In this document: piece after piece, positions 13,491 to 35,628 of the stretch
Position numbering within the stretch: the first letter of the stretch is position 1
How the letters are laid out: each line of letters begins with the position of its first letter
Source: Candidatus Promineifilum breve
GTDB taxonomy: Bacteria; Chloroflexota; Anaerolineae; Promineifilales; Promineifilaceae
Direction of reading: 5' to 3'
Length of the DNA stretch: 64,000 bases
NCBI RefSeq assembly: GCF_900066015.1
Contig: NZ_LN890655.1
Coordinates: forward strand, 2,024,726 to 2,088,725
Program-made: the position numbers and the translations under genes
Notes under the pieces: generated by a model
What the model was told of the DNA's origin: nothing
Seen by the model: the letters and a program-made list of their open reading frames with translations, nothing else
Databases searched by the model: none

Positions 13491-13522
13491 GAAACCGGGT
13501 TTTTTCTTGAAAACCCGGTTTC
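13491..13522. repeat. Palindromic element family A, copy 1
   Basis: 32-bp hairpin with arms GAAACCGGGTTTT and AAAACCCGGTTTC around a TTCTTG centre. It lies 10 bp after the stop of the secreted Thr-rich protein. Further copies: 13541, 23001, 25186, 28687, 35597. Confidence 0.9.
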
Positions 13523-13540: not shown

Positions 13541-13581
13541 AGAAACCGAGTTTTCAAGAAAAAACTCGGTTTCTTTTTTTT
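13541..13581 (+). terminator. Palindromic element family A, copy 2, acting as terminator
   Basis: Arms AGAAACCGAGTTTT and AAAACTCGGTTTCT, in reverse internal orientation to copy 1, followed directly by eight T residues. Placed just after a gene end, it should work as an intrinsic terminator. Confidence 0.7.
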
Positions 13582-19473: not shown

Positions 19474-21957
19474 CTAGTCCTTTAGTACCACGGCCGCCAG
19501 GCGCAACGTGTCGGCCAGCCAGCGGCCGTCGTCGCCCACCAGTTGCAGCCGCCGCTCAATCGTCGGGTCTATCAGCGCGATCTCCACGGTGTAGGCGCCG
19601 GGCGGCCGGGCCGGATCGGGGCCGAGGCTGTGGCGCTGGGTCACCACCTCGCCCGGCGGCAGGACGGGCAGCGTCCGTAGCGCGCTATAGACGACATTGC
19701 CGGCCTCGTCGAGCAGGCGGAACTCTGTCTCGTAGGCCGACGCCGCGTCGCCCGACGCCCCGTCGCCGGCGGCTTGCCAGTGGAGCGTAATCACCAGCGG
19801 CTCGCCGGGGCCGAGGACGCGCCGGTCGTACTCGTAGCCCAGCAGATGCACCACATCTTCAAAGTTATAGCGCCCGGCGTTGGGCAGCGGCGCGGCCGGG
19901 TCGCTGGGTTGCAGTGCCAGTTCGCCCAGGGTGAAGCTATCGCCCAGGCCCGCGCCCGTCGCCCCGTCGGTGACGCCCAGCCGGTAGCCCTCCGGCGCGT
20001 AGAAGCCGACGCGCAGGATGGCGTTGGCCGGCACGTAGGCCGTCTCCGGCACGTAGAGGCTAAGCCGTTCGACGAAACGGTCGCCCGGCCGCCATTGGCT
20101 GCTGGGGAAGTTGCCCAGGCCGGGGTAGGTGTCGCGCTGGGCGACCATCGCCCCGCTGTCGGCGTCGCTGAGGTGGACGAAGAGGAGGTAGTCGCCCGGC
20201 GGTTGGCCGGTCACTTCCCAGAATAGCTCGATGGCGATTGGCTCGCCGGGTGTCACCACCGCACGATCGACGGTATAGCCGCGCAAGGCCACGAACGTGT
20301 CGAAACGGATATCGACCGGGTTGGGCAAGGCGGCGTCAGCAGGGTAGCTTGCCGGCCGCGCATAGGCCGGGGCCAGATAGCCGAACAGGGCGATGAGGGC
20401 CAGGGAGAGCATGAAACCGTTGGCGGCGAGGGCGAGGTAGGTGGCGGGTGGCGGGTGGCGGGTGGCGGGTGTGGCAGCGCCTTCACTCGTCGATTGTGGA
20501 TTGTCACTCGCCCCTATCAGCAGACTTAACCCATAGAAGATCAACACCGCCAGCGACGACAGCGCCGGGAAGAAGAAGCGGCCCATCGGCCCGGCGGGGC
20601 TGACCAGCAGGTAGTTGAAAAGGACGGCGAAGAAGATGGCGACGTTGAGGGAAAGCAGAAGCAGGGGGGCAGGGGAGCGGGGGTGCAGGGGGGAATGATC
20701 GGATTCCGCTGCTTTTCCTAGGGGACGAAAGTCGTCGCTACCGGAGGGTGGCGTCATGCGGGCGCTCTGCTTCACCCCTGCTCCCCTGCGCCCCTGCACC
20801 CCTGCTCTTACGTAACCGGCAATGGCTAACAACAGAACCACGAACAACGCGCCATACATCCACGCCGGCAACGGTATCTGACCGTAGCCGAAGCGGCCCC
20901 ACAGGCTGGTCCAGGCGTAGGGCAACTCCGACACGGCCAGGGCGAAGCTGTCGCGCGGGTCGCGCACGCCCCATAGCTCGGTCAGGCGCTCGATGCCCGT
21001 CGGCTCGCCGTAGAGCAGCATATTGCGGCCGAACCACCACCCGGACAGCAGCGTGGCGACGCCGACGATGAGCAAGTTCACCACCACCCACTGCCGCCAC
21101 TGGCCGCGCCGCCAGGCGACCCAGGTCACGGCCGCTTCAATGACCACGATAATGGCCGCCAGATTGAACTTGCTGAGCAGCGCCAGACCATAGAGCGCCC
21201 CCAGAATCGCGCCCCAGCGCCACGACAGACCGCGCTCGTCGCGCAGCAGCCGCACGCAGGCATAGATGACCGCCGCCCCGGCCGCCGCGGCGATGACGTC
21301 GTTATTGATGGCCGCGGCCAGATAGAGGAACATCGGATTGAAGGCCACGAAGGCGGCCGACCCGGCGGCCAGCGCCGGCCGGGCGGGCCAGATGACTCGC
21401 GCCGTGGCCCACGTCAGCCAGACGGTCAGCGCGCCGAACAGCAGATTGACGACCCGCGCCAGATGGGCGGCCAGCGCATCGCCGCGCCAGGGGAAGGCCT
21501 CGTCCGGGCCGTGGAGATACTGGTTCTTATTGTCGCGCCCCACTTCCCAGTAGCGATAAGCCCAGAAGGGATTGCCCGGCGGGGCGTAGCAGACATCGCG
21601 GCCGGTCTCGATCCAGAAGGTCGCCAGCGCAGCGGCGGCGTAATAGAGCGGCGGGTGATGCCCCTGCACGGTGCAGTCCAGGCCACTGCCCTCGCCCTGC
21701 ACCGGCAGCGAGCGGCGCTGGATGAGGTGCTGCACGAAGCGGTAGTGGCGCAGCTCGTCGGTGGCCTCGTGCAGCGGATTCACGGCGCTATAGGCGAAGC
21801 CGAGGAGCAAAAAGAGAACGAGGATGGCGGCGAGGGGCCAGTGGCGAGTGGCGGGTAGCGGGTGGCGCGTGGCGAGTGGCGAATTCTCTTCATTCGTAAT
21901 TCGTAATTCGTAATTCGTAATTTCTGCCGTGGTCGGCCGTCCGTCGTCGGTGGTCAT
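19474..21957 (-). CDS. GT-C type membrane glycosyltransferase-like protein, third gene of operon
   Basis: An 827-residue protein. ATG at 21957 overlaps the upstream stop as ATGA, so it is translationally coupled; longer reading upstream lies inside the neighbouring gene. The N-terminal 40 residues are encoded by repeat DNA (ITNYELRITN, then ATRHPLPATRH). After the first helix comes the acidic motif EATDELRHYRF expected of GT-C enzymes. About ten helices follow. The C-terminal 330 residues are soluble and beta-rich, with two similar jelly-roll-like units (GEPIAIELFWEVTG, GEPLVITLHWQAAG). A repeat block interrupts residues about 385-433. Inference: transfers sugar from a polyprenyl carrier at the outer membrane face. 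Acceptor unknown. Confidence 0.82.
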   Translation of the reverse strand: MTTDDGRPTTAEITNYELRITNEENSPLATRHPLPATRHWPLAAILVLFLLLGFAYSAVNPLHEATDELRHYRFVQHLIQRRSLPVQGEGSGLDCTVQGHHPPLYYAAAALATFWIETGRDVCYAPPGNPFWAYRYWEVGRDNKNQYLHGPDEAFPWRGDALAAHLARVVNLLFGALTVWLTWATARVIWPARPALAAGSAAFVAFNPMFLYLAAAINNDVIAAAAGAAVIYACVRLLRDERGLSWRWGAILGALYGLALLSKFNLAAIIVVIEAAVTWVAWRRGQWRQWVVVNLLIVGVATLLSGWWFGRNMLLYGEPTGIERLTELWGVRDPRDSFALAVSELPYAWTSLWGRFGYGQIPLPAWMYGALFVVLLLAIAGYVRAGVQGRRGAGVKQSARMTPPSGSDDFRPLGKAAESDHSPLHPRSPAPLLLLSLNVAIFFAVLFNYLLVSPAGPMGRFFFPALSSLAVLIFYGLSLLIGASDNPQSTSEGAATPATRHPPPATYLALAANGFMLSLALIALFGYLAPAYARPASYPADAALPNPVDIRFDTFVALRGYTVDRAVVTPGEPIAIELFWEVTGQPPGDYLLFVHLSDADSGAMVAQRDTYPGLGNFPSSQWRPGDRFVERLSLYVPETAYVPANAILRVGFYAPEGYRLGVTDGATGAGLGDSFTLGELALQPSDPAAPLPNAGRYNFEDVVHLLGYEYDRRVLGPGEPLVITLHWQAAGDGASGDAASAYETEFRLLDEAGNVVYSALRTLPVLPPGEVVTQRHSLGPDPARPPGAYTVEIALIDPTIERRLQLVGDDGRWLADTLRLAAVVLKD
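20440..20476. repeat. GTGGCGG heptamer block inside GT-C gene
   Basis: Five GTGGCGG-type units in tandem, in frame (residues about 495-506 of the 19474-21957 product), coding ATRHPPPATY-like sequence. Confidence 0.8.
20661..20806. repeat. GCAGGGG octamer palindrome inside GT-C gene
   Basis: Left half: 8-bp units such as GCAGGGGG and AGCGGGGG. Right half: the complement (CCCCTGCT, CCCCTGCA). About 75 bp of other sequence lies between. In frame, codons about 385-433. Confidence 0.85.
21838..21924. repeat. Compound GTGGCGA + GTAATTC heptamer repeat at GT-C N-terminus
   Basis: GTGGCGA/GTAGCGG units, then GTAATTC iterated four times. In frame, encoding residues about 12-40, including ITNYELRITN. 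Confidence 0.85.
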
Positions 21958-24083
21958 TTCTGGTTTAGCTCCAGGGTGACGCGATCCGCCCCGTCCGTGG
22001 TGGGGATGCGCGCGCCGGTCAATGGATCGTAGAGGCCGAAGATGACCGTCGCCGCGGCCGCGCCATCCGGCGCGATCAGGTAGTGGCGTTGCAGAAAGGC
22101 ATCGCCGGGCCATAGCGTCTGCGGATCGACCCACAGGCCATCGTCGCCGGCCACCATGCCGCCCGCGCCGTCCAGCAGTTGGGCGAAGACGGCCAGCCGT
22201 GGCCCGGAATAGACGCCCGGCGGCGGCGGGTTGCTGACCAGGGGGATGTCGGGTAAGTCCAGTTCGCCCTCCAGCCGCCAGACCAGTTCCAGCGTGCCGG
22301 TCGCCGGGTCATAGGCCGCCGCCGACCAGCACAGGCCGTTGGCGAAGCACAGCGGGGCCTCGTTCAGCCACACCTGCCCCTCGGTCAGCAGCGGCGTGAC
22401 CGGCGGGGCAACGCGGGTCAGGGTGTAGCCGCCGGCCAGCAGCGCGTCCTGGGGCAGCGGCTCGAATACGGCGGCGAAGGGGGATTCGACGGCCGGGAAG
22501 CCGCTGAAGCTGACGTCGGGCCACAGCAGCAGCGCCCGCTCGGCGTTGTACCAGCGCGGCCGCACGTCCGCCCCGTCCAGCGCCAGCTCGAGGGCGATGC
22601 GGTTCCACGGCCCGGCCAGCGGCCCGGTGATGCCGAAATCGGCCGGCCAGGGAGCGGCCGGATCGCGGACGATGAAGGCGGCCACGTCCTCCACGTCGGC
22701 ATGGTAGAGGAAGCGCACCATGCCCCGCGCCGGCCATTCGACGAAGTAGGCGCGCAGGTCGCGGGCGGCCGTCGCGCCGATGAGGACGGCCGCGGCCAGC
22801 CCGGCCAACAGGTGGCGGCGTCGGGCGGGCCATCGCGCCCACCCGGCCACGACCCCCACCGGCAGCGCGGCCAGGAGGTAGAAGGCGGGCTGGGCCAGAA
22901 TGACGTGGCCCAGGCTGGCCGGCGGCACACTGAGCACGGCCGGAGCGATGCCGCCCAGCCACCAGATGAGCAGGAAAGCCGAGGCGTCTGCCGGCGGATA
23001 GAAACCGGGTTTTTTCTTGAAAACCCGGTTTCTTACTCCTGATCCAACACTCCCCAACGCCAAAGCCACACCCACCCAAAACAACACCGCGCCCACAACC
23101 CCAAACACCGGCCGGTCAGGAATATTGTAAAGCCATTCAGGATCACCCGCCGCGTGGGCCATGGTCAGCGCGGCCACGGCATGGTCGACCAGCGGCCCAA
23201 AGTTGCCCGCCCGCGCCTCGACCACCGGCACGGCCACTTCGCCGACGCGCCCCTCGGCCGCGGGCTGGGCGGCCACGGCCAGCAGCAGCGGCGCGGCCAC
23301 GGCGGCGGTCACGGCGGCCATGACCAGCAGCCCGCGCCACTTGCCCCGCAATCGCCCCGGCGCGACCAGCAGCAGATAGCCGACAAACGCCGCCGGTACC
23401 AACGGCGCGCCGCGCGAGGCGAAGTAGCTATGGAAGCCGAGGCCGAGGAAGAGGCCGGAGGCGGCGAAGGGGAGCAGGGGGGCAGGGGAGCGGGGGTGCA
23501 GGGGTGCAGGGGCGCTCTTGTCTCCCCTGCTCCCCTGCACCCCTGCCCCCCTGCCCGCTTCCATTGCCTTCCAGAACCAGAAGAAAGCCACCAACGCCAA
23601 CACCGGCGTCAAACTATGGCGGATGCCGACGCGGGAGTACATGAGGCCCCAGAAGCTGACCGCCAGCAGGGTCGCCGCCGACAGCCCCACGGCCGCGCCG
23701 AACAGGCGTCGCCCCAGCGCGTAGGTTAGCGGCACGGCCAGCGTGCCCAGCACGGCCGACAGCAGGCGAATGCCCAGGCCGGTGGGGCCGAAGAGGGCCA
23801 GGAAAACGGCGTTGAGGGCGTGATAGAGCGCCTCATGGCCGGAGGCGTCGGCGTAGTAGAAGGCCAGGTCGCCGCCCAGGATGTTGCGCGAGATGACCAG
23901 CGACTCGATCAGCTCATCGTCGCGCCAGCCGGGCGGGAAGCTCTCCAGCGCCCAGACGCGCAGGCCGAAGCCCAGCAGGGTGATCAGCGCGGCCCACGTC
24001 GCCGGGCGGCGGGCCAGGCTGCCCAGCAGTTCGCGGCCGGGGTGGGTGCGCGGCGCGGGCTGGTAGATGGTCACGTTATTCAT
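21954..24083 (-). CDS. GT-C type membrane glycosyltransferase, second gene of operon
   Basis: A 709-residue protein. Its ATG overlaps the preceding stop by 8 bp. The catalytic-loop acidic pair is in PPGWRDDELIESL (about residues 52-64), after the first helix (TWAALITLLGFGLRVWALE). About 12 helices run to residue 420, then a soluble, beta-rich C-terminal domain. It aligns by eye with the neighbouring 24076-26280 and 30092-32293 products. Two in-frame repeat insertions are seen: octamer family B (about 177-205) and palindrome family A (about 351-362, RNRVFKKKPGF). Known: GT-C enzymes (PMT/ArnT/STT3-like) use lipid-linked sugars. Donor and acceptor cannot be told. Confidence 0.87.
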   Translation of the reverse strand: MNNVTIYQPAPRTHPGRELLGSLARRPATWAALITLLGFGLRVWALESFPPGWRDDELIESLVISRNILGGDLAFYYADASGHEALYHALNAVFLALFGPTGLGIRLLSAVLGTLAVPLTYALGRRLFGAAVGLSAATLLAVSFWGLMYSRVGIRHSLTPVLALVAFFWFWKAMEAGRGAGVQGSRGDKSAPAPLHPRSPAPLLPFAASGLFLGLGFHSYFASRGAPLVPAAFVGYLLLVAPGRLRGKWRGLLVMAAVTAAVAAPLLLAVAAQPAAEGRVGEVAVPVVEARAGNFGPLVDHAVAALTMAHAAGDPEWLYNIPDRPVFGVVGAVLFWVGVALALGSVGSGVRNRVFKKKPGFYPPADASAFLLIWWLGGIAPAVLSVPPASLGHVILAQPAFYLLAALPVGVVAGWARWPARRRHLLAGLAAAVLIGATAARDLRAYFVEWPARGMVRFLYHADVEDVAAFIVRDPAAPWPADFGITGPLAGPWNRIALELALDGADVRPRWYNAERALLLWPDVSFSGFPAVESPFAAVFEPLPQDALLAGGYTLTRVAPPVTPLLTEGQVWLNEAPLCFANGLCWSAAAYDPATGTLELVWRLEGELDLPDIPLVSNPPPPGVYSGPRLAVFAQLLDGAGGMVAGDDGLWVDPQTLWPGDAFLQRHYLIAPDGAAAATVIFGLYDPLTGARIPTTDGADRVTLELNQK
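23001..23032. repeat. Palindromic element family A, copy 3, in frame inside GT-C gene
   Basis: Arms GAAACCGGGTTTT and AAAACCCGGTTTC, identical to copy 1. In this gene's frame it encodes RNRVFKKKPGF within a loop between helices. Confidence 0.9.
23470..23555. repeat. GCAGGGG octamer palindrome inside GT-C gene
   Basis: AGCAGGGG, GGCAGGGG, AGCGGGGG, TGCAGGGG units, then complementary CCCCTGCT/CCCCTGCA units. In frame (residues about 177-205), coding GAGVQGSRG and APLHPRSPAPLLP. Confidence 0.88.
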
Positions 24084-26280
24084 CGACCACCGTCACCGTT
24101 GTCAAGTTGACGCTATCCCGCCCCTCGTCCGTCATCAGCCGCCGGCTGTCGTCGCGGGTGTAGACGCCCACGACCAGCGGATACTCGCCGGGCGGTGCGT
24201 CCGCCGGGATGGTCAGGCTGTGCAGTTGCAGCAGCACGTCGCCGCTGACCCATGCCTCGCCCGGCGCGCCCAGGCCGTCGGCCACAGCTAGCAGTTGGCC
24301 CGGCCCGGTCAGATGGGCGAAGAGCGACGCCTCCGGCAGCGGCGCGAGCAAGCGCCAGGCGGTCACGAGGGTCAGCACGTCGCCCGGCCGGGCGGCGGTG
24401 GCGCTCAATTCGTAGCCCAGCAGTTCCACGTGGTCGCCAAAGCGCGCGGCCCGTGGTTGAACGACCGGCGTCGCCCCGTCCAGCGCGTAGACGCGCACCG
24501 GCCGGTCGAGATCATCGGGCCGCAGGGGCAACTCGTCCACCAGCGTGGCCCCGGCCAGGTAGGGCTGCAACGCGGTCGGAATGGGCGTGAAGCCGGGGAT
24601 GAGCAGCAGGCTATCGGCCGCGCCGGGCAGGATGAGGCTCTGGCGGCCGTCGAACCAGCGCGGCTGAACGGCCGGATCGCGCAGCGTCAGCAAGGCCACG
24701 GCCGGGGTATGGTAGCGGCCGGGGGTGATGGTGGAGACGGCCGCCGCGCCCGCGCCCCGTTCGTCCAGATAGCGCAGCGCGGCCACCATCGTCGTCTCGT
24801 ACTGCACCCGCACCTCCGGCGCATTGGCCCAGCGGACGAAGTAGTCGCGGGCGGTTACGGCCGCAAGGGTGGTGAAGACGATAAGAGCGGCGAGGGGCAG
24901 GTAGCGGGTGGCGGGTGGCAAGTGGCGAGTGGCGGGTAGCGGGTGGCGAGTGGCGCTTTCCGAATTCGTAATTCGTAATTCGTAATTCGTAATTTGCTTG
25001 CCCGTCATTCGCCGCAGCACGACATTGTAGCCCGCCACCAGCGCCAGCGCCGGAAACAGGTAGAGTACCGGCTGCGCGCCGATGGCCTGGGTCATGCTGA
25101 GGCCGGGGCCGGTGACCAGCACCGGAGCGAAGCCGAGGAGCAGCCAGAGCAGGGCCAAGAATGCGCCGGGCGCGGCCGCGTCCGCGAAACCGAGTTTCTT
25201 CTTGGAAACTCGGTTTCTCGCTGCGGCCAACCAGCCGGCAATCACTAACCCCACGTAAAACAACACCCCCATCACCGGCCCCAGAAACGGCTTGCCGGGC
25301 AGGTTGTAGCGCCACGTCCGGTCGCCCTCAATCGTAAACAGTCGCAGCGCGCCGCGGGCGTTGGCCCATAGCGGGGCCAGGTCGCCGCCGGCCGCGGCCC
25401 GCAGCGGCGCGCTCAGTTCATCGATGCGCGCCTCCAGCCCCGGATGGTTCGCCAGATAAAGGAACAGCGGCGCGGCCACCAGAACGGCCACCAACAGCGT
25501 CAGCCCCAGCCCGGCCCACACCCGCCGCGCGGCCACCAACCCGCGCCCGGCCACAAGCAGATAAAGCGCCAAGGCCGGCAAGGCCAGCCACATGACGCGG
25601 GCGGGGATGTAGGTGTAGAACGTCAGGCCCAGCAGGAGGCCGGAGGAGGCGAAGAAGAGCAGGGGAGCGGGGGAGCGGGGGAGCAGGGGAGATCGCGTTC
25701 TCCCCTGCCCCCCTGCCCCCCTGCTCCCCTGCGCGTCAGCCCACAACCCTTGCCAATAGAACAACACCGCCAACGCGAACACCGCCGGCAACGTGATCGA
25801 GCGCAGCGCCTGCCGCCCGGCCATCAGCGGCCAGAAGCCCACGGCCAGCCCGGCGGCCGTCAGCAGCGCCACCGGCCGGCCGAACGCCCGCCGCGCCCAG
25901 GCATAGGTGGCGGCGATCAGCAACAGGCTGAAGTAGACCGACGTAAGACGCGCGGCGAGGATCGTCGGCCCCGTGCCGGCCATGAGCAGAGCCGTAGCGT
26001 AGTCATAGAGCGGTTCGCGGCCGTAGCCGACGGTGAAGTAGAGAGCGCGCGCGCCGTTGACGATCTCCCAGGCGGTCAGGCCGTGGTCGGCTTCGTCATG
26101 GGTCATTCCGGGAGGAATGCTGGTCATTCCAGGAGGAATGCCGGTCATTTCCGGAGGATTATTCGCTAAGGCGAACAGGCGCAATGCGGCGGCCACCAGC
26201 AGGATCAGAGTAATCCAGCCCACTTGCCGAAGATGTCGCGTTGCTGGGTCATTGGCCCGCCCTGGCGCTATGTGTACCAT
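24076..26280 (-). CDS. GT-C type membrane glycosyltransferase, first gene of operon
   Basis: A 734-residue protein with about 12 helices and a soluble C-terminal beta domain of 250 residues (LVTAWRLLAPLPEASLFAHL). The acidic motif is in PPGMTHDEADHGL (about residue 62); just before it a 7-residue unit (MTGIPPG, MTSIPPG) is duplicated. Three repeat insertions are in frame: octamer B (about 184-208), palindrome A (about 355-366, RNRVSKKKLGF), and compound heptamers (about 430-461, ITNYELRITN). Closest relative in the window is 30092-32293. Inference: flips no lipid itself but transfers sugar at the outer membrane face. First gene of a three-gene overlapping operon. Confidence 0.87.
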   Translation of the reverse strand: MVHIAPGRANDPATRHLRQVGWITLILLVAAALRLFALANNPPEMTGIPPGMTSIPPGMTHDEADHGLTAWEIVNGARALYFTVGYGREPLYDYATALLMAGTGPTILAARLTSVYFSLLLIAATYAWARRAFGRPVALLTAAGLAVGFWPLMAGRQALRSITLPAVFALAVLFYWQGLWADAQGSRGAGGQGRTRSPLLPRSPAPLLFFASSGLLLGLTFYTYIPARVMWLALPALALYLLVAGRGLVAARRVWAGLGLTLLVAVLVAAPLFLYLANHPGLEARIDELSAPLRAAAGGDLAPLWANARGALRLFTIEGDRTWRYNLPGKPFLGPVMGVLFYVGLVIAGWLAAARNRVSKKKLGFADAAAPGAFLALLWLLLGFAPVLVTGPGLSMTQAIGAQPVLYLFPALALVAGYNVVLRRMTGKQITNYELRITNSESATRHPLPATRHLPPATRYLPLAALIVFTTLAAVTARDYFVRWANAPEVRVQYETTMVAALRYLDERGAGAAAVSTITPGRYHTPAVALLTLRDPAVQPRWFDGRQSLILPGAADSLLLIPGFTPIPTALQPYLAGATLVDELPLRPDDLDRPVRVYALDGATPVVQPRAARFGDHVELLGYELSATAARPGDVLTLVTAWRLLAPLPEASLFAHLTGPGQLLAVADGLGAPGEAWVSGDVLLQLHSLTIPADAPPGEYPLVVGVYTRDDSRRLMTDEGRDSVNLTTVTVVDE
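24898..24994. repeat. Compound GTGGCGG + GTAATTC heptamer repeat inside GT-C gene
   Basis: GTGGCGG/GTAGCGG/GTGGCGA units and then GTAATTC iterated four times, in the same order as at 21838-21924. In frame at residues about 430-461. Confidence 0.88.
25186..25217. repeat. Palindromic element family A, copy 4, in frame inside GT-C gene
   Basis: Arms GAAACCGAGTTTC and GAAACTCGGTTTC around TTCTTG. Both arms carry matched T-to-C/A-to-G changes relative to other copies, so pairing is kept. Encodes RNRVSKKKLGF. Confidence 0.88.
25658..25732. repeat. GCAGGGG octamer palindrome inside GT-C gene
   Basis: AGCAGGGG and AGCGGGGG units, then complementary CCCCTGCC/CCCCTGCT units. In frame at residues about 184-208, coding GSRGAGGQG and RSPLLPRSPAPLL. 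Confidence 0.88.
26101..26163. repeat. 21-bp tandem duplication at GT-C catalytic loop
   Basis: Three 21-bp units beginning GGTCATTCC/GGTCATTTC; two are nearly identical. They encode MTGIPPG MTSIPPG MT directly before HDEAD. Confidence 0.85.
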
Positions 26281-26382
26281 GCTAAGGGGTGATGATAGCG
26301 GCGGGCCGGAGAGGGGGCAACTACGCTAAACAGGCGATCACCCGCCTGATGGGCCACGGCGCGGCCGGCAATGGCGCGGCAA

Positions 26383-26416
26383 TAAAAAACGCCGCACGGA
26401 CGAGCGTGCGGCGTTG
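26383..26416 (-). terminator. Intrinsic terminator of the infC-rpmI-rplT operon
   Basis: Reverse strand: AACGCCGCACG pairs with CGTGCGGCGTT over a 6-nt loop, followed by TTTTTATT. Confidence 0.88.
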
Positions 26417-26440
26417 GGACAATCGGGGGTTAGATGTGAA

Positions 26441-26794
26441 TCAAGCCAAAGCGGTCTTGGCGATGTCGACGACGGCCGAGAAAGCCGCTTCGTCGCGCAC
26501 GGCCAGGTCGGCCAGCGCCTTACGATCCAGCTTGACGTTGGCCGTTTTTAGGCCGTGCATGAAGCGACTGTAGGACAGACCGTGCTGCCGGGTGGCGGCG
26601 TTGATACGGGTGATCCACAGGCGGCGGAAGTCGCGCTTCTTGTTACGCCGGTCGCGGTAGGCGTACCAATACGACTTCATCATCGCTTCATTGGCCCGGC
26701 GGAACAGCTTGGAACGCGTGCCCCACTGGCCTTTGGTCATGCTGAGTATTTTCTTGTGACGACGGCGGGTTACAAAACCACCTTTTACGCGCAT
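26441..26794 (-). CDS. rplT: 50S ribosomal protein L20
   Basis: A 117-residue basic protein, the normal L20 length. Signatures: [37 protein letters not shown]20 binds 23S rRNA early in large-subunit assembly. It is last in the infC-rpmI-rplT order common to most bacteria and is followed by a strong intrinsic terminator. GAGG precedes the start by 8-9 nt. Confidence 0.98.
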
Positions 26795-26887
26795 ATCTTT
26801 TTACCTCGCATTTCATGGTAGCCTGGGCGCTCAACGCGGGGCGCGAGGCCAGGCAGCGATAGAGTCAACTCATCGATGGCTAGATGA

Positions 26888-27133
26888 CTAGCCCGGCGGA
26901 TTAGCCTTGTACTTCTTGAGATAGGGGGCCAGGCGCTTGATGCGGCGGCGATCGCCGGGCGCGGTGACCACGATCATCTCGGAGAACTGCTGCTTGGTAC
27001 GCTTCGACTTGCGCCGGCGCAAATGGCTTTTGCCGCCCTTGGTGCGGACGATCTTGCCTGAGCCGGTCATACGAAAGCGCTTGGAAGCCGCTTTGTGGGT
27101 CTTCAGTTTGTATTTCTTCGTTGCCTTTGGCAT
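26888..27133 (-). CDS. rpmI: 50S ribosomal protein L35
   Basis: An 81-residue, very basic protein. Signatures: MPKATKKYKLKTHKAASKRF, TGSGKIVRTKGGKSHLRR and SKRTKQQ. It is slightly longer than the usual 64-66 residues, with a C-terminal extension (YLKKYKANPPG). Sits between infC and rplT. Confidence 0.97.
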   Translation of the reverse strand: MPKATKKYKLKTHKAASKRFRMTGSGKIVRTKGGKSHLRRRKSKRTKQQFSEMIVVTAPGDRRRIKRLAPYLKKYKANPPG

Positions 27134-27196
27134 GGTTTACATCCCTTGCTACATCTAAAGTGGCCGGCGCGATCTCGTCCTCGGCCGGCCCTTGCC

Positions 27197-27219
27197 GAAA
27201 AAAAAGCCCCGTAGGGCTT
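27197..27219 (-). terminator. Intrinsic terminator/attenuator between infC and rpmI
   Basis: Reverse strand: AAGCCC, CTAC-type loop, GGGCTT followed by a run of T (27198-27205), starting 3 nt after the infC stop. It may lower rpmI-rplT expression relative to infC. Confidence 0.7.
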
Positions 27220-27222
27220 CTT

Positions 27223-27837
27223 TTATCCTTGGGTTGCTTCCGACTCCGGCTCTTTGGGAGCCTCGGCGCCGGAGGGGCTTTTCTGGGGCACGGCGCTTTC
27301 CGGCGCCAGCGTCAGGGTCATGCGCCACCCTTCCAGGGTCGGTTGTTGCTCCACAACCGCGATATCGCTCAAATCTTCGGCGATCTCCTGCAAGGCTCGC
27401 TGGCCGATCTCCGGGTAAGAGATCTCCCGCGACTTGAACCGGACCATGAACTTGACTTTCTTGCCCTCTTCGAGCCACTTGCGTGCGTTACGCACGCCAA
27501 TATCCTTATGGTAATCACCCGTTCGAGGCGACAGACGAATCGTCTTGATCTCGATCTTCTTCTGGTGCTTGCGGGCTTCGCGCTCTTTCTTCGTCTGTTC
27601 GTAGGCGAACTTGCCGAAATCGAGCACCCGGCACACCGGCGGGTTGGCATTCGGGGCCACTTCGACCAAATCCAGTTCCGCTTCCTCGGCGATACGCAGC
27701 GCATCGAAGAAGGGCAGAACGCCCCGATTGACACCGTTGTGGTCGATCAGGCGCACTTCGCGCGCCCGGATCTGCCGGTTGATCCGGTAATCAACGGTAA
27801 TTGGTTTGGTTACTGGTGGACGTCTTACTCTCTTAAT
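27223..27837 (-). CDS. infC: Translation initiation factor IF-3, starting at AUU
   Basis: The IF-3 N-terminal signature continues upstream of any ATG/GTG/TTG: the reverse frame reads DYRINRQIRAREVRLIDHNG, so a GTG at 27756 would delete it. The frame opens after a TAG at 27838-27840. The next codon is ATT (27835-27837), with AAGAGGG ending 6 nt before it. That gives 204 residues starting MKRVRRPPVTKPITVDYR. Known: infC of E. coli starts at AUU, and IF-3 represses its own mRNA by rejecting this start. The C-terminal domain (IRLSPRTGDYHKDIGVRNA, VKFMVRFKSREISYPE) is normal; the last 25 residues are a low-complexity tail. Confidence 0.93.
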   Translation of the reverse strand: MKRVRRPPVTKPITVDYRINRQIRAREVRLIDHNGVNRGVLPFFDALRIAEEAELDLVEVAPNANPPVCRVLDFGKFAYEQTKKEREARKHQKKIEIKTIRLSPRTGDYHKDIGVRNARKWLEEGKKVKFMVRFKSREISYPEIGQRALQEIAEDLSDIAVVEQQPTLEGWRMTLTLAPESAVPQKSPSGAEAPKEPESEATQG

Positions 27838-27924
27838 CTACTACCCTCTTTTCGGGCATTCCAGCACGCCGGAACCCGCGAATGCAATTGACAACAAAAA
27901 TACAGGCCAATGGCCTAAGCTTTA

Positions 27925-27953
27925 ATATTATCACAGCCTGAGGCCACAGTCAA
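27925..27953 (-). promoter_or_regulatory. Sigma-70 promoter of infC operon
   Basis: Reverse strand: TTGACT (27948-27953), 17-bp spacer, TAATAT (27925-27930). The leader of about 80 nt includes the palindrome TAGGCCATTGGCCT and a GCATTC/GAATGC stem just before the ribosome-binding site. Confidence 0.75.
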
Positions 27954-27989
27954 CCGGAGTGTTAGACCTCCGGCGTACCGAAGTTCTCT

Positions 27990-28048
27990 CAATCGCTATC
28001 GCTATCGTAATCGCAATCGAAGATCGAAAGCGAAAGCGATAGCGATTA
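27990..28048. repeat. ATCGCT hexamer inverted repeat
   Basis: AATCGCTATCGCTATCG... on the left and ...CGAAAGCGATAGCGATT on the right, a hairpin of iterated 6-bp units between infC and the DUF308 gene. Confidence 0.8.
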
Positions 28049-28063
28049 AGTCAGGTCAGTGAG

Positions 28064-28648
28064 CTATTCCACCCCGGCCGTCGGATTGCGCTTCTGCACC
28101 ATATAGCCAAAGGCGATCAGCCCCAGCCCGATGAGGGCCAGCACCGCCCCGGCCCATACGCGCAAATCACCAAGCTCACGGGCACGGAAGTAAAAGACCA
28201 GCACGCCCAGCGCGGCCAGTAACAGGTTGATGATCAGGGGCATGATCTGGAAGCGTTCGTTGCCGCGGGCGAAGAGCATCTCGAACAGGCCCAGCGCGCC
28301 ATAGGCGATGAGCAAGACGGCCAGCAGGGTGTAGGCGGCCGATATCGACAAGACGTCGAAATAGGCCAGCAACAGCAGCGCTCCGCCGCCGATCAGCCCC
28401 ACCAGGCCGCGCACCCGGTCGGTCGTCGAGCCGGGCGTGCCGCGATTCAGCAGGCTCATAAATGTCTGGATAGCCCCGGCCACGGTCAGGTAAATCGCCA
28501 GGGCATAGGCCACAAAGATCGGCGCGGTTTGCGCGTCGAGCAGCAGATAGAGGCCGAGGCCCAGAGCGAAGATGCCCCTGACCAGGGTCCAAATCCAGGC
28601 GTTGGGGTTCGCGGATACAGCCTTGCTTGAGGATTTTTTCGTCGCCAT
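28064..28648 (-). CDS. DUF308 / HdeD-like membrane protein
   Basis: A 194-residue protein. A basic, Ser-rich cytoplasmic N-terminus (MATKKSSSKA) is followed by six helices in three hairpins (TLVRGIFALGLGLYLLL, FVAYALAIYLTVAGAIQTF, LLAVLLIAYGALGLFEMLF). Similar in plan to 11471-12013 but clearly diverged. AGGAG precedes the start. A positively charged tail (QKRNPTAGVE) ends the protein. Role unknown beyond the family. Confidence 0.87.
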   Translation of the reverse strand: MATKKSSSKAVSANPNAWIWTLVRGIFALGLGLYLLLDAQTAPIFVAYALAIYLTVAGAIQTFMSLLNRGTPGSTTDRVRGLVGLIGGGALLLLAYFDVLSISAAYTLLAVLLIAYGALGLFEMLFARGNERFQIMPLIINLLLAALGVLVFYFRARELGDLRVWAGAVLALIGLGLIAFGYMVQKRNPTAGVE

Positions 28649-28686
28649 TTTGATTTCTCCTGTTACTGATGAAGTGCGCCGCGCTA

Positions 28687-28759
28687 GAAACCGAGTTTTC
28701 CCGGAAAGAAACCGGGGATCCCGGAAAGAAACCGAGTTTTCAAGAAAAAACTCGGTTTC
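28687..28759. repeat. Palindromic element family A, compound copy 5
   Basis: Three GAAACCG-type arms (GAAACCGAGTTTTC, GAAACCGGGGATC, GAAACCGAGTTTTC) and one closing AAAACTCGGTTTC arm, which suggests one element inserted in or rearranged with another. Lies between two reverse-strand genes. Confidence 0.8.
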
Positions 28760-29031
28760 TAGGTCAGACTTAGAACAATATTGAGAATAATCAACAGGGC
28801 AAACATCGCCAATGCCAGCAGGAAGACGCGCCGCAGGTCGCCGACGATGAAGCCGTACTCATCCTCGATGCGCTCGGCCGCGGCCTGGCTGCGGCTGAGC
28901 TTGGGCGCTTTGGCGGCGCGGGCTTCGGCCGCGGGCGGTGGGGCTTCGGCCGTCTCAGTGTCAATGATGTCCGGTGTGGCCGCCGGTCGGGCGGCGGGCT
29001 TACTCTTGGGGCGATTGCTCTTCTTAGCCAT
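28759..29031 (-). CDS. Small single-pass membrane protein upstream context of DUF308 gene
   Basis: A 90-residue protein. The first 55 residues are Lys/Pro/Ala-rich and disordered; then comes an acidic stretch (RIEDEYGFIVGDLRR) and one C-terminal helix (VFLLALAMFALLIILNIVLSL) that ends the protein. This resembles tail-anchored small proteins. It lies 17 bp after the sortase gene on the same strand, so it is probably co-transcribed with it. No family recognised; the stop lies within a palindromic repeat arm. Confidence 0.7.
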   Translation of the reverse strand: MAKKSNRPKSKPAARPAATPDIIDTETAEAPPPAAEARAAKAPKLSRSQAAAERIEDEYGFIVGDLRRVFLLALAMFALLIILNIVLSLT

Positions 29032-29048
29032 AAAACTCCTTGGGGCGA

Positions 29049-29972
29049 TTAGCCGCTATCTCCATCCGCCAGCCGGGCGAAGACGACGACGCGCCGGGTA
29101 TTGACGCGGTAGGGATAACAGGAAATGAGGGTCACCTGGGCGTGGTCGGTCGGCCCCATCACCCACACGTCGGTCGGTTCCACCACGCGGACTTCTTCGA
29201 CAACATACGTATACGCCTGCCGCTCGGTGGAGACGACGACCTCGTCGCCGGGCTTCAGCCGGTCGAGGTAGCGGAACGGTTCGCCGTAGATGTCGTTGTG
29301 GCCCGACAGGACGACGTTGCCCGCCCGCCCCGGTTGGCCGCTGCCGGCGTATTGGCCGATGCCCTTCTTCAGTTGTTCCCAATCGTCCCCCTGGACGATG
29401 GGATAATCGCCACTGAGGGCCGGAATCTGCAAGCGGCGGGCGGTCTCCGGGCCGGGGGTGGGGATGGGCGGGGCCACGTAGGCGTTGACCACGGGCATGA
29501 GATGTTCGGGGATGCCGCCGGCCTCGCCCGGTTCGGGGGCCTGGCCGTCGAGCGGCGGGTGGTGGCCGCCGGGCAGCAGGACGACGCCGATGGCCGGCGC
29601 GGGGGTGGCCGTGGGCAGGGCCAGCGCCTGACCCTGGGCGGCCTGGGCCGCGGCCAGCTCGGTGTTCAGCCGGCGATTGGTGCTCCAGAGCGTCAGCAGG
29701 ATCGCCACCAGGGCCACGGCGGCGGCGACCTCGACCAGCAGCAGGCCGCGGTCGGCCAGCCAGCGCCAGAACGGCCGGCGCGGCGCGGGAGCCAGCGCGG
29801 CGGCGATGAGCGCTTCGTCGGGCGCGCCGTCGGCCGCCGGGTCGGGGATGACGATGCGGCCGTCGGCCCTGGCCCGGCGCAGGCGTTGCTCCCGCTCGGC
29901 GCGGCGGCGGGCATAGAGCAGTCGCTCCAGCTCGACGGCGCTCAATTCTTCGGGCGACTTCTTTCCAGCCAT
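29049..29972 (-). CDS. Sortase (class D/E-like)
   Basis: A 307-residue protein. A cytoplasmic, Arg-rich N-terminus is followed by one helix (LLLVEVAAAVALVAILLTLW, about 77-97), a Pro-rich spacer, and a C-terminal sortase domain. Catalytic residues: His225 in VLSGHNDIYGEPF, Cys285 in TLISCYPY, Arg293 in NTRR. The TLISCYP box is typical of sortases. Known: sortases cut a C-terminal sorting signal and join proteins to the wall or to each other. No classical LPXTG-helix-Arg substrate is seen in this window. The gene begins a pair with the small membrane protein gene. Confidence 0.9.
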   Translation of the reverse strand: MAGKKSPEELSAVELERLLYARRRAEREQRLRRARADGRIVIPDPAADGAPDEALIAAALAPAPRRPFWRWLADRGLLLVEVAAAVALVAILLTLWSTNRRLNTELAAAQAAQGQALALPTATPAPAIGVVLLPGGHHPPLDGQAPEPGEAGGIPEHLMPVVNAYVAPPIPTPGPETARRLQIPALSGDYPIVQGDDWEQLKKGIGQYAGSGQPGRAGNVVLSGHNDIYGEPFRYLDRLKPGDEVVVSTERQAYTYVVEEVRVVEPTDVWVMGPTDHAQVTLISCYPYRVNTRRVVVFARLADGDSG

Positions 29973-30015
29973 GGCGGGATCATAGCGCAGGAGAGGGTAG
30001 ATTCAAAGGAGAAGA

Positions 30016-30083
30016 TGTGGCGGGTGGCGGGTGGCGAGTCGCGAGTTACACCCGCCACTCGCCACCCGCCACCCGCTACTCGC
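30016..30083. repeat. GTGGCGG heptamer palindrome
   Basis: GTGGCGG GTGGCGG GTGGCGA units, then complementary CGCCACC/CGCTACT units after a 10-bp centre. It fills most of the gap between the fourth GT-C gene and the sortase gene. Confidence 0.88.
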
Positions 30084-30091
30084 TTCATCTC

Positions 30092-32293
30092 TTACGGAGA
30101 TAAGACAACGAGGGGCGGCACCACGGCCGTATCGCCGCCGGGCGTGAGCAGGCGCGCGCCGGATGTCCGGTCGTAGACGCCGACGACGGCCGCATAATCG
30201 CCGGGCGCGGCCGAGGCGGGCACGACCACCGGCTGCACCTGGAGCACTACGTCGCCCGCCCGCCAGGCCCACGACGGCGCGTCCAGCCCGTCGTGCTGGG
30301 CCAGGATGCCGCCCGCGCCATCCAGCACGTGGGCGAATAGCACCGCGTCGGTGGTGAAGCTGGGCGGCACGACCGGCCCAGCCCGCGCCGGGTCGAGCAC
30401 GCGCCAGACGGTCAGCAATTCGGCCGTGTCGCCCGGCCGCACGCCCTCTTGCAGCCAGCGGGCGGCCGTCAGTTCAATCGCACCGTTGAAATCAACCGGC
30501 TGGGGCAGCGGGTCGCCGGTCAGGGCCGCGGCGGCCGTCGCGCCGTCGATCCAGTAGAGGGTGAAGCGCGGGTCGAGATCATCGGGCCGCAGATCGACCG
30601 TCTCGATGGCCTCCAGCACGGGGATGAAGGCCGGGTGGGGCGGCGTAGAATACGGGATGTAGGCCAGCATACGCTGTGGCGGGATGACCAGGGCGCGCCG
30701 GGCATCGACCCAGCGCGCCGTCTCGGCCACGGCCGGGTAATCGGCGGCCAGCACCAAGGCGATGGAGGAATCGTGGGCCGGGCCGGGGTAGACGGTGGAG
30801 AAAAGGACGGGATCGGCCGTGGGGTAGTTGGCCGTCATGTGGCCGAGGCCCGTCACCAGCGTATGTTGATACGCCCCGCGCACCTCGGCCGAATCGCCCC
30901 AACGCACGAAGTAGTCGCGGCCGGAGGTGAAAGCTACCCAAAGTACCAGGGCGATTGCTAGAAGCGCAGGGGAGCGGGGGAGCGGGGGAGCAGGGGGGAA
31001 AGAGAGAGCGCCCCTGCTCCCCTGCCCCCCTGCCCCCCTGCGCTTGATCACATCCAACACCGCCACACCCCCCACCGCCACAATCAGGTACACCGCCGGC
31101 AGCGCCGCCGCGTTGCGGGTGGTGTTGGCCGTGGGACCGGTGATGAGCGAGGGCAGAATGCCGGCCGCGAACCACAGCAGCAGAAAGGCATGGGCCGTCC
31201 GCCGCCAGCGCCACAGGCAGACCAGCAGCCCGATGACGAAGAAGACGGCCGAGACTACATCGAACACCGGCCGGCCGGGGATGTTGTAGGCCAGGAATTG
31301 GTCGCCGAAGCCGGGCCAGACGAAGGCCAGCAGCGCGTCGCGGACGTTGAGCAGCAGCGGGCCGAGGTCGCCCGCCGCCAGCCCTTGCAGCGGCCGATCG
31401 AGCATGTCCAGCCGCGTCTGCATCTCCGGGTGGGCGCGCAGATAGAGGAACAGCGGGGCCACCAGCAGCCCGGCCAGCAGCAGCCCGCCCACCACCGGCC
31501 GCCAGACGCGCCGGAAGGCCGCCCGGTGGACGAGCGCCAGGTAGCCCAGGAACGCCGGGAACACAAGCCAACTGACCCGCGCCGCCAGGTAGACGTGGAG
31601 CGTCAGGGCGAGGGAGATGGCGAAGAAGAGCAGGGGGGCAGGGGGGAAAGGGAGCAGGGGTGCAGGGGAGCGGGGGAGCAGGGGTGATCTCTCTTTCTCC
31701 CCTGCTCCCCTGCCCCCCTGCTCCCCCGCGCCGCTAACTTCCAACAAACGCCAGAACGCCACCACCGCCAACGCCATAAAGAACGGCAACATCCCCGCCC
31801 GCAGCGCCTCGCGGCCGGCCGCCAGGGGCCAGAAGGAGACGGCCATGAGCGCCGCGCCCAGCAGGGCCACGGCGCGGCCGAGGCGCGGCGCGGCCCAGGC
31901 GTAGGTCAGGGCGATGGCCGCCGTGCTGAAGACGACGTTGACCAGCCGCAAGGCCAATAGCCCGCGCCCCAGCGCGGCCATGAACAGGGCCACGGTGTAG
32001 CTGTAGATCGGCTCGCTGCCGTAATTGAGCGGGAAGAAATAGAGCAGGACGCCATTGAGGATGCCGATGGCCTCGCGGCCGTGGTTGGCCTCGTCGTGGG
32101 TCAGCCCCGGCGGGATGCCGGTCAGATTCCAGACGCGCAGGGCGAAGGCGACCAGGAGGATGAGGACGATGGGTGACCACCGACCGCCGACCGCGGGGGG
32201 AGCAGGGGAGCGGGGGTGCAGGGGGGCAGGGGTGGTCAGAGAAGCAGCGGTCGTTGTGGAATCGCCACCCGCCACTTGCCCCTCGCCACCCAT
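30092..32293 (-). CDS. GT-C type membrane glycosyltransferase coupled to methyltransferase gene
   Basis: A 733-residue protein. The start at 32293 overlaps the methyltransferase stop as TGATG and has AAGGGG before it; a longer open frame to 32698 lies inside the methyltransferase gene. Residues 1-40 derive largely from repeat DNA. The first helix (PIVLILLVAFALRVWNL) leads to the GT-C acidic motif in GLTHDEANHGREA (about 66-78). About 12 helices, then a soluble beta-rich C-terminal domain. Octamer-repeat insertions lie at residues about 189-222 and 418-443, in loops where paralogs carry other repeats. Palindrome A is absent from the loop where two paralogs have it. Confidence 0.87.
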   Translation of the reverse strand: MGGEGQVAGGDSTTTAASLTTPAPLHPRSPAPPAVGGRWSPIVLILLVAFALRVWNLTGIPPGLTHDEANHGREAIGILNGVLLYFFPLNYGSEPIYSYTVALFMAALGRGLLALRLVNVVFSTAAIALTYAWAAPRLGRAVALLGAALMAVSFWPLAAGREALRAGMLPFFMALAVVAFWRLLEVSGAGEQGGRGAGEKERSPLLPRSPAPLLPFPPAPLLFFAISLALTLHVYLAARVSWLVFPAFLGYLALVHRAAFRRVWRPVVGGLLLAGLLVAPLFLYLRAHPEMQTRLDMLDRPLQGLAAGDLGPLLLNVRDALLAFVWPGFGDQFLAYNIPGRPVFDVVSAVFFVIGLLVCLWRWRRTAHAFLLLWFAAGILPSLITGPTANTTRNAAALPAVYLIVAVGGVAVLDVIKRRGAGGQGSRGALSFPPAPPLPRSPALLAIALVLWVAFTSGRDYFVRWGDSAEVRGAYQHTLVTGLGHMTANYPTADPVLFSTVYPGPAHDSSIALVLAADYPAVAETARWVDARRALVIPPQRMLAYIPYSTPPHPAFIPVLEAIETVDLRPDDLDPRFTLYWIDGATAAAALTGDPLPQPVDFNGAIELTAARWLQEGVRPGDTAELLTVWRVLDPARAGPVVPPSFTTDAVLFAHVLDGAGGILAQHDGLDAPSWAWRAGDVVLQVQPVVVPASAAPGDYAAVVGVYDRTSGARLLTPGGDTAVVPPLVVLSP
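30965..31041. repeat. GCAGGGG octamer palindrome inside GT-C gene
   Basis: GCAGGGGA and GCGGGGGA units, then complementary CCCCTGCT/CCCCCTGC units, in frame (residues about 418-443, GAGGQGSRG then PPLPRSPALLA). Confidence 0.87.
31629..31729. repeat. GCAGGGG octamer palindrome inside GT-C gene
   Basis: Same family, longer copy, residues about 189-222 (GAGEQGGRGAGEK, then RSPLLPRSPAPLLP). Confidence 0.87.
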
Positions 32294-32300
32294 CACCCCT
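32195..32300. repeat. Octamer and heptamer repeat remnants at GT-C N-terminus
   Basis: A half-element of GCAGGGG units (32195-32232) and a half-element of CGCCACC units (32263-32290) near the start of the fourth GT-C gene, reaching the end of the methyltransferase gene. Confidence 0.75.
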
Positions 32301-33141
32301 TCCCCGGCTCGGCCACGGCGAAGACCTCGCGCTCGAAGAACCAGCGGAAGGGGGGCAACCCGAAGGCCACGCGGCGCAGCCCGGCCAGCAGCGGCGACTC
32401 GGTGCGGTTTTGCGGCGGCGAATCGAGCCAGACCTTGATGCCGGTGTAGCCCGCATCGCGCAGGCCGCGGCGCATCCGCACTAAATCCTGCTCGTTGACG
32501 TGGACATCCTGATTGACCGGCGTGATGGCCCGCGGGTCTTTGGGGTAGGCGTCGCCCTGGCCCATGAGGATACGCGCCCGGCGCACCCAGGGGTAGGCGT
32601 AGGCGTCGTACCAGCGATTGGGCGCGGTGTGGATGATGAGCCGCCCGCCCGGCTTCAGCACGCGGGCGATGTCGAGATAGGCGCGGTGCAGCTCCCACGG
32701 GAAAAGATGCTCCACCACGTCAAACAGCAGCGCCCGGTCGAAATAATTGTCGGGGAAGGGCAGCGTCTTGGCGTCGGCCTGCAACACGCCCGGCCGGGCG
32801 GGCAGGGTTTCGCCGGCGGCCGTGGCCCGCGCTACCTCGGCGCTGACCACGTCGCGCGACATGCGCGCCGCGGCCACGGCGTAATCCATGCCGTGGGCCT
32901 CCACGCCCAGGCGCATGCAGTGGCGCAGGATTTCGCCCCGGCCGCAGCCCACGTCGAGCACGCGCATGCCCGGCCGCACGCCGGCCAGGGCGAAGGCGTC
33001 GTGGAGCCGCCGCGAAAGGTGCGCCCCTTCCGATTCGATAAAGACGTCGTAGCCCTCGCACGCCGTCAGGAAGTACTCTTCCGTATAGAGGGTCGATGGG
33101 AGCGATGGCGCTCCATTAACGTGTGCCGCTTGTTTAGCCAT
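32293..33141 (-). CDS. Class I SAM-dependent methyltransferase
   Basis: A 282-residue protein starting MAKQAAHVNGAPS. Motif I is VLDVGCGRGEILRH (about residue 66), with the acidic residue in GMDYAVAAARM, motif for post-I, and DRALLFDVVEHLFPWELHRA as motif II, then VLKPGGRLIIHTAPN. This is the Methyltransf_11-like fold. Frame upstream of 33141 lacks a good start and overlaps the sigma-factor gene on the other strand. A TATAAT lies 12-17 nt upstream. Coupled to a GT-C gene, it may methylate a sugar or lipid in the same glycan pathway (inference). Confidence 0.88.
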   Translation of the reverse strand: MAKQAAHVNGAPSLPSTLYTEEYFLTACEGYDVFIESEGAHLSRRLHDAFALAGVRPGMRVLDVGCGRGEILRHCMRLGVEAHGMDYAVAAARMSRDVVSAEVARATAAGETLPARPGVLQADAKTLPFPDNYFDRALLFDVVEHLFPWELHRAYLDIARVLKPGGRLIIHTAPNRWYDAYAYPWVRRARILMGQGDAYPKDPRAITPVNQDVHVNEQDLVRMRRGLRDAGYTGIKVWLDSPPQNRTESPLLAGLRRVAFGLPPFRWFFEREVFAVAEPGKG

Positions 33142-33192
33142 ATGGTGTGCTTTTGGGGCATTATATGTCAGCGGGGCGCGCAGGGGCAAACC

Positions 33193-33218
33193 TGAAACCT
33201 TTGGCCGCGCCGTCCGTA
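33193..33218 (+). promoter_or_regulatory. ECF (sigma-W-type) promoter of the sigma-factor operon
   Basis: TGAAAC (33193-33198), 16-bp spacer, CGTA (33215-33218). This is exactly the TGAAAC-N16-CGTA pattern known for Bacillus sigma-W promoters. It lies 32 bp upstream of the preferred TTG start, pointing to autoregulation. Confidence 0.6.
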
Positions 33219-33249
33219 TAGCTGGATGAGTAGTCAGGAGATTGGTACG

Positions 33250-33837
33250 TTGAATAACGAGCAAGTCTGGTTGGAACAGGCCAGACGTGGCGACAAGTTT
33301 GCGTTCGGGCAGCTGATCGAAGCCTATCAGGGGCCGGTCTATAACCTGGCCTACCGGATGCTGGGCAATTCCGGCGAAGCCGAAGAGGCGGCGCAGGAAG
33401 CGTTTATTCGCGCCTACACCCGGCTCGATAGCTACGACCCGACGCACAAATTCAGCACGTGGCTGTTGTCGATCACGTCGAACTTTTGTATCGACCAGAT
33501 TCGCAAGCGCCGGGCGGTGTTGCTGTCGATTGACGAGCCGCTGCCGCCTCATCCGGCGCTGCATAGCGATAACAACAAGGGGCCGGAAGCGGCCTATGTG
33601 GCCCAGGAACGCGAGGAACTGGTGCAGAACTTATTGAGCGAACTGCCGGAGGAGTATCGCCAGGCAGTTGTGTTGCGGTATTGGTACGACATGGCCTACG
33701 AGGAGATCGCCGAGGTACAAAAAACGACCGTCAGCGCGGTGAAATCGCGCTTGTTTCGCGCCCGGCGCATGTTGGCCGATGCCGGCCTGGCCCGCGGCCT
33801 GCTGCCGGCCGACCAGTTGGAAGAGGTCGCGGTCTAG
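33250..33837 (+). CDS. ECF-family RNA polymerase sigma factor
   Basis: A 195-residue protein from TTG at 33250, preferred because AGGAG lies 9 nt before it; ATG at 33226 would add 8 residues and has no ribosome-binding site. Region 2 (FGQLIEAYQGPVYNLAYRML, EEAAQEAFIRAYTRLDSY, FSTWLLSITSNFCIDQIRKR) and region 4 (LPEEYRQAVVLRYWYDMAYE, AVKSRLFRARRML) are complete, with an acidic linker. Group-specific sigma factor acting with the anti-sigma gene 34 bp downstream. Confidence 0.95.
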   Translation: MNNEQVWLEQARRGDKFAFGQLIEAYQGPVYNLAYRMLGNSGEAEEAAQEAFIRAYTRLDSYDPTHKFSTWLLSITSNFCIDQIRKRRAVLLSIDEPLPPHPALHSDNNKGPEAAYVAQEREELVQNLLSELPEEYRQAVVLRYWYDMAYEEIAEVQKTTVSAVKSRLFRARRMLADAGLARGLLPADQLEEVAV

Positions 33838-35596: not shown

Positions 35597-35628
35597 GAAA
35601 CCGAGTTTTTTCTTGAAAACTCGGTTTC
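35597..35628. repeat. Palindromic element family A, copy 6
   Basis: Arms GAAACCGAGTTTT and AAAACTCGGTTTC around TTCTTG. Placed 8 bp after the stop of the bactofilin-like gene. Confidence 0.9.

Follow-up and report, generated by a model that had tools for sequence, protein, structure and literature searches.

A 32-nt hairpin that recurs in a 64,000-nucleotide stretch of Candidatus Promineifilum breve DNA (the window) is very probably a non-autonomous, RAYT-linked mobile element of the REP type that lacks the usual GTAG tag, and not specifically a Rickettsia palindromic element (RPE). The first-pass annotation of the window had described it as an RPE-like element in a different phylum. That description holds insofar as the palindrome is dispersed and some of its copies are in frame within genes, but RPE is not the most fitting name for it. 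REP/RAYT comes closest, as judged from the RAYT genes bracketed by the hairpin in a congener and in Poribacteria, a polarity of the REP type, the inverted pairing of copies, and the extragenic location of 100 of 113 copies. In addition, given that in-frame REPs outside Rickettsia and REPs of Chloroflexi have already been described (PMC3733652), finding an RPE-like element in another phylum is by itself no novelty.

Matches to the arms of this hairpin, referred to here as family A, number 13 in the window, compared with 0.5 expected, and none of 100 shuffles reached 13. The six occurrences annotated previously were all recovered, with the start of the second corrected from 13541 to 13542. The first two copies, 13491..13522 (+ strand, a GGG/CCC arm variant) and 13542..13573 (- strand), form an intergenic '+-' inverted doublet. 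Two others, both on the + strand, are located within genes for GT-C membrane proteins. The copy at 23001..23032 lies in GT-C gene 1 (21954..24083, - strand, Pfam PMT_2), where its - strand reading is RNRVFKKKPGF, and the copy at 25186..25217, a TTTC/GAAA arm variant, lies in GT-C gene 2 (24076..26280, - strand, a weak PMT_2 match) and encodes RNRVSKKKLGF. The start of gene 2 may be internal to the listed ORF (24076-26280), as the gene caller prefers 26106. The fifth occurrence is a compound element (28687..28759, - strand) in which a full hairpin (28728-28759) and two partial arms, one of them at 28687-28699, are arranged in tandem at approximately 20 nt; the full hairpin supplies the last base of the TAG stop of a small predicted - strand ORF. 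The sixth (35597..35628, + strand) follows the stop codon of gene 34474-35589(+) at a distance of 7 nt. The region 21954-33564 of the window also contains heptad-type arrays (for example at ~23470-23560 and ~24900-24990) that traverse the GT-C genes in frame and translate to SPLLPRSPAPLL and ITNYELRITN stretches. Counting both strands, GCAGGGG.GCAGGGG arrays number 22 in the window and 207 in contig C2 of the same genome, and AATTCGTAATTCGTAATT arrays number 5 and 39, respectively.

The genome of the window (G000; 5.03 Mb, 99.96% complete) contains the further copies for which the annotation had proposed a search: a pattern search allowing up to 3 mismatches detected 108, whereas the reversed control pattern detected none. 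The hairpin is built of 13 stem pairs and a loop of 6 nt that in most copies reads TTCTTG or TTCCTG, giving an element of 32 nt, or about 34-36 nt including the flanking TA/T. The loop lends the element a polarity. Stem pairs 1, 8, 10 and 13 covary on both sides across copies. The paired arm change reported for the 25186 copy is real, representing T-A to C-G at stem pair 13, and is found in 22 of the 108 copies; the proposal that the hairpin itself is kept is likewise upheld by paired stem changes across copies, although some of this covariation may reflect the copying of a few master variants and not repeated compensation. Composite hairpins, in which a second palindrome (GGCGAAC..GTTCGCC) sits inside the family A loop, occur at C2:148542, C2:857481 and C2:206088 and in the C1:2167734 region. 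The genomic context of 113 copies was classified on 1.66 Mb, comprising all of contig C2 and the hairpin-bearing parts of C1, using gene calls from a home-made dicodon scorer. Contig C2 (1.0 Mb; 1,004,044 bases), which makes up a fifth of the genome and holds over half of these copies (64 of 113), is possibly a second replicon.

The strongest evidence for a link to RAYT transposases is that the pairing of this hairpin with a RAYT recurs in another phylum. In a congener (G002), locus L178 carries a REP-type tyrosine transposase (ORF 615-1184, - strand), one of the Y1 genes of the genus, with family A hairpins on both sides, at distances of 7 and 13-15 nt; a third copy is close by. These copies are a close variant of the 32-mer and not exact matches, having TTTC/GAAA arms and loops of TTCTGA or TTCTTG. 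The gene was missed by PF01797 and was spotted on reading L178 beside the hairpins. NCBIfam REP_Tyr_transpos is the best match of both this protein and that of a second congener (G005), with the G002 protein scoring 54.5 bits, under the NCBIfam cut-off of 80. RAYT homologues in seven further genomes of the family or class (G022, G072, G019, G008, G030, G014 and G034) have matching hairpins on both sides, of the same build and of other sequence, compared with 7 of 489 control genes that have any 13-pair hairpin at both ends.

In a scan of named genomes, the exact 32-mer was present many times in Candidatus Poribacteria, and these copies are identical to the commonest hairpin sequence of G000. 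At Poribacteria locus L289:1383-2036, exact 32-mers lie 8 and 6 nt off the ends of a RAYT (ORF 1423-1998, - strand) that is 52% identical to the G002 RAYT, and the genome carrying it has the highest 32-mer count, at 107 (at most 1 mismatch). Several other Poribacteria genomes contain hairpin copies with weak or no RAYT matches. In a tree of the RAYTs, G002 groups with G022, which has a different hairpin, and is not sister to Poribacteria despite the common hairpin. The histories of RAYT and hairpin therefore disagree, and exchange of either one is possible. Within the near-complete G000 assembly, no RAYT of the matching clade was detected (best identity, 31%), so its hairpins look orphaned, either acquired or left over. 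Three Y1 genes of G000 identified with PF01797 were considered as the RAYT of the element and rejected, as their flanks contain no family A hairpin. Two of them (L041 and L043) sit among other palindromes, of CCGTGGGATGAATCCCACG and GGTGAACTGGAAGTTCACC types, that probably represent further repeat families.

Although coding sequence makes up 84% of the DNA sampled, 88% of the 113 classified copies are extragenic and 13 lie wholly within predicted ORFs, one of which scores poorly and may be spurious. Three of the carriers are GT-C proteins, two of them those of the window. Others include another membrane protein, a GH13 enzyme, a radical SAM protein, a histidine phosphatase and an amidase, and a type ISP restriction enzyme carries the hairpin twice. 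In total, in-frame copies are found in at least 11 plausible genes. The annotation had raised the question of whether intragenic copies keep one frame, and they do not, with three readings in use among well-supported carriers. A reading that starts at the flanking TAG would stop, and so that reading is found at gene ends instead. The available relatives are mostly metagenome assemblies and too diverged to provide exact empty sites. The exception is the length of the insert in the GH13 gene, the sole site at which it can be measured: 11 orthologues are insert-free and read HRIATRVGQAQARVAQM or close variants, whereas the sequence in G000 is HRIATRVRKETEFPGRNSVSGDPARLAQM, longer by a net 36 nt exactly (12 codons). 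In the radical-SAM gene the hairpin sits in a variable linker, and for the histidine-phosphatase gene no close orthologue spanning the insert was found.

As annotated, the inserts of GT-C genes 1 and 2 are in frame and at aligned positions, in a loop between membrane helices, and the third close paralogue (30092..32293, - strand) has no insert; nor do three of its orthologues, and no hairpin was seen in gene 3 of any genome examined. At the gene 1 loop, the congener G005 has the hairpin at the same place and in the same frame with changed arms, G006 has a decayed composite hairpin, and G007 has an unrelated palindrome (CCACAGATT type), while in distant relatives the loop is short. At the gene 2 loop, G005 has a hairpin with a different loop sequence, G006 has two tandem hairpins, G003 has a decayed hairpin, G007 has the same other palindrome as in its gene 1, and G008 has no hairpin. 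At L264 (G007:C413), both GT-C genes carry a CCACAGATTTCACAGATT-type palindrome where G000 has family A. The annotation had held that orthologues keeping RNRVxKKKxGF in the absence of a DNA palindrome would speak against an inserted element; the distant GT-C relatives do not have that stretch, which leaves the insertion standing. Two histories would fit these sequences equally, an old insertion with later remodelling or repeated new insertions, and whichever holds, the loop tolerates additions. In both genes the in-frame insert resides in a tolerant loop and is most likely neutral.

Were the hairpin an RPE of the Rickettsia type, in-frame insertion into proteins would be its main niche, and its mobilisation would not be assigned to any known system. 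The in-frame copies just described, with their conserved hairpin, and the several kinds of palindrome found in a single GT-C loop among orthologues could be read in this way. However, most copies are extragenic, not one of the 97 copies sampled in Poribacteria falls inside a gene, and the element flanks RAYT genes in two phyla. We therefore consider an RPE in this sense unlikely, and favor the RAYT-linked REP-type element.

The 5' side of the element tends to face gene ends. Gene 3' ends no more than 10 nt away lie on the 5' side of the hairpin in 28 cases versus 6 on its 3' side (p=0.0002), and eight genes have a TAG stop whose final base is also the first of the hairpin. Most clusters (71 of 91) are single copies. 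Among 22 adjacent pairs, 18 are arranged '+-', none '-+' and four in tandem, but the doublet interiors are neither conserved nor alike, in contrast to classical REPINs. The tetranucleotide GTAG or GTGG is rare on the 5' side (4 of 113 copies), where CTAG, CCCG and ATAG are the commonest, and a CGTC tag is absent among the listed frequent tetranucleotides at either end. The bias toward gene 3' ends, an RNA stem predicted at -16 to -20 kcal/mol and the paired stem changes would also suit a hairpin that serves mainly as a transcription terminator or 3' mRNA stabilizer, kept by selection and spread by gene conversion. Nevertheless, the number of copies in divergent intergenic regions is close to that expected from their length (21 versus 23.6), and termination as the sole role was rejected; a strong U tract is absent, copies exist inside genes, and congeners differ in copy number, from roughly none to over 100. 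Such a main function is highly improbable, although termination or stabilization may be a secondary role of the REP-type element.

An insertion sequence of 1.45 kb is also associated with the hairpin. It encodes a DDE_5 domain (121 bits), matches IS701 models below their cut-offs, and has the DDE transposase, terminal inverted repeats (TAATACCTTCGCCAAA) and short target duplication of an IS701/IS4-type element. All nine full copies in G000 (L124, L126, L128, L130 and L132-L136) split a family A hairpin at its loop, with the 6 nt of the loop as the target duplication. In G005, hairpin loops likewise hold four copies or ends of the IS, and a 69% relative there (L125) shows the same placement with the loop duplicated. 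This IS701-like element appears to take the hairpin loop as its target. That the hairpin is instead a MITE of a DDE transposon such as this one is scarcely credible, despite the element always being found in the hairpin, because its TAATACCTTCGCCAAA ends differ from the hairpin arms, and the duplicated 6-nt loop marks the hairpin as target and not derivative.

By analogy with the established REP/RAYT model, the RAYT would recognize the folded single strand and copy or move the hairpin elsewhere in the genome. Most insertions into genes would be purged, and the survivors would be those in stop-free reading frames at places where the protein can accommodate additional residues. More tentatively, and in our estimation with the odds against it, the 32-nt REP may have moved between Chloroflexota and Poribacteria, alone or together with its RAYT, being mobilizable in trans where the gene is absent, with a 36-nt length that keeps the frame and makes it a supplier of 12-residue loops, reused at one membrane-protein loop. 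A RAYT/REP pair in Chloroflexota and Poribacteria that combines one hairpin sequence with divergent RAYTs makes hairpin recognition testable by swapping, and the set of in-frame REP insertions, one of them with insert-free orthologues, makes the neutrality of inserts testable. The same system provides an IS701-like element that apparently targets the hairpin loop.

Small dispersed repeats of cyanobacteria, reportedly treated by Elhai and colleagues in 2008, are comparable in being very small, dispersed and mobile-looking. The pairing of RAYTs with REPs has been documented (PMC6006769, PMC3116915), as have REPs in Chloroflexi, REPs inside ORFs, REP-supplied TAG stops and placement near gene 3' ends (PMC3733652). 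Similar to the REP/REPIN-RAYT systems of E. coli and Pseudomonas with their GTAG REPs (PMC3733652, PMC6006769, PMC3116915), family A is a hairpin within the 20-40 nt range, present in approximately 100 mostly extragenic copies that lie near gene 3' ends, form inverted doublets, supply TAG stops, flank a RAYT in some genomes and occasionally fall within ORFs. Unlike canonical GTAG REPs it has no consistent GTAG/GTGG tag, and it is therefore filed as a REP-type variant. Further differences are the near-perfect, symmetric stem of 13-16 bp, the unconserved doublet interiors, the lack of a RAYT in G000, and the occurrence of one 32-nt hairpin family beside RAYTs only 52% identical in two phyla. Like an RPE, the palindrome is read in frame inside proteins (the 36-nt gain in GH13 and the GT-C genes), but it is mostly extragenic, RAYT-linked and free of the CGTC tag, the comparison being made by tag; some RPEs have been placed with CGTC-tagged repeats (PMC3733652). 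Precedents for insertion sequences that target REPs include ISRm22 (IS4 family), ISPpu9, IS621 and IS1397 (PMC1525189). As with ISRm22 of Sinorhizobium, for which 10 of 10 copies are tabulated in REPs (PMC1525189), every copy of the IS701-like element lies in the repeat; unlike the elements listed, it has an IS701-like DDE_5 transposase, inserts exactly at the 6-nt loop with duplication, and occurs in two Chloroflexota species. Intragenic REPs, REP-supplied stops and REP-targeting insertion sequences are already known, and the variant features here are the missing tag, the cross-phylum hairpin identity and the reused GT-C loop.
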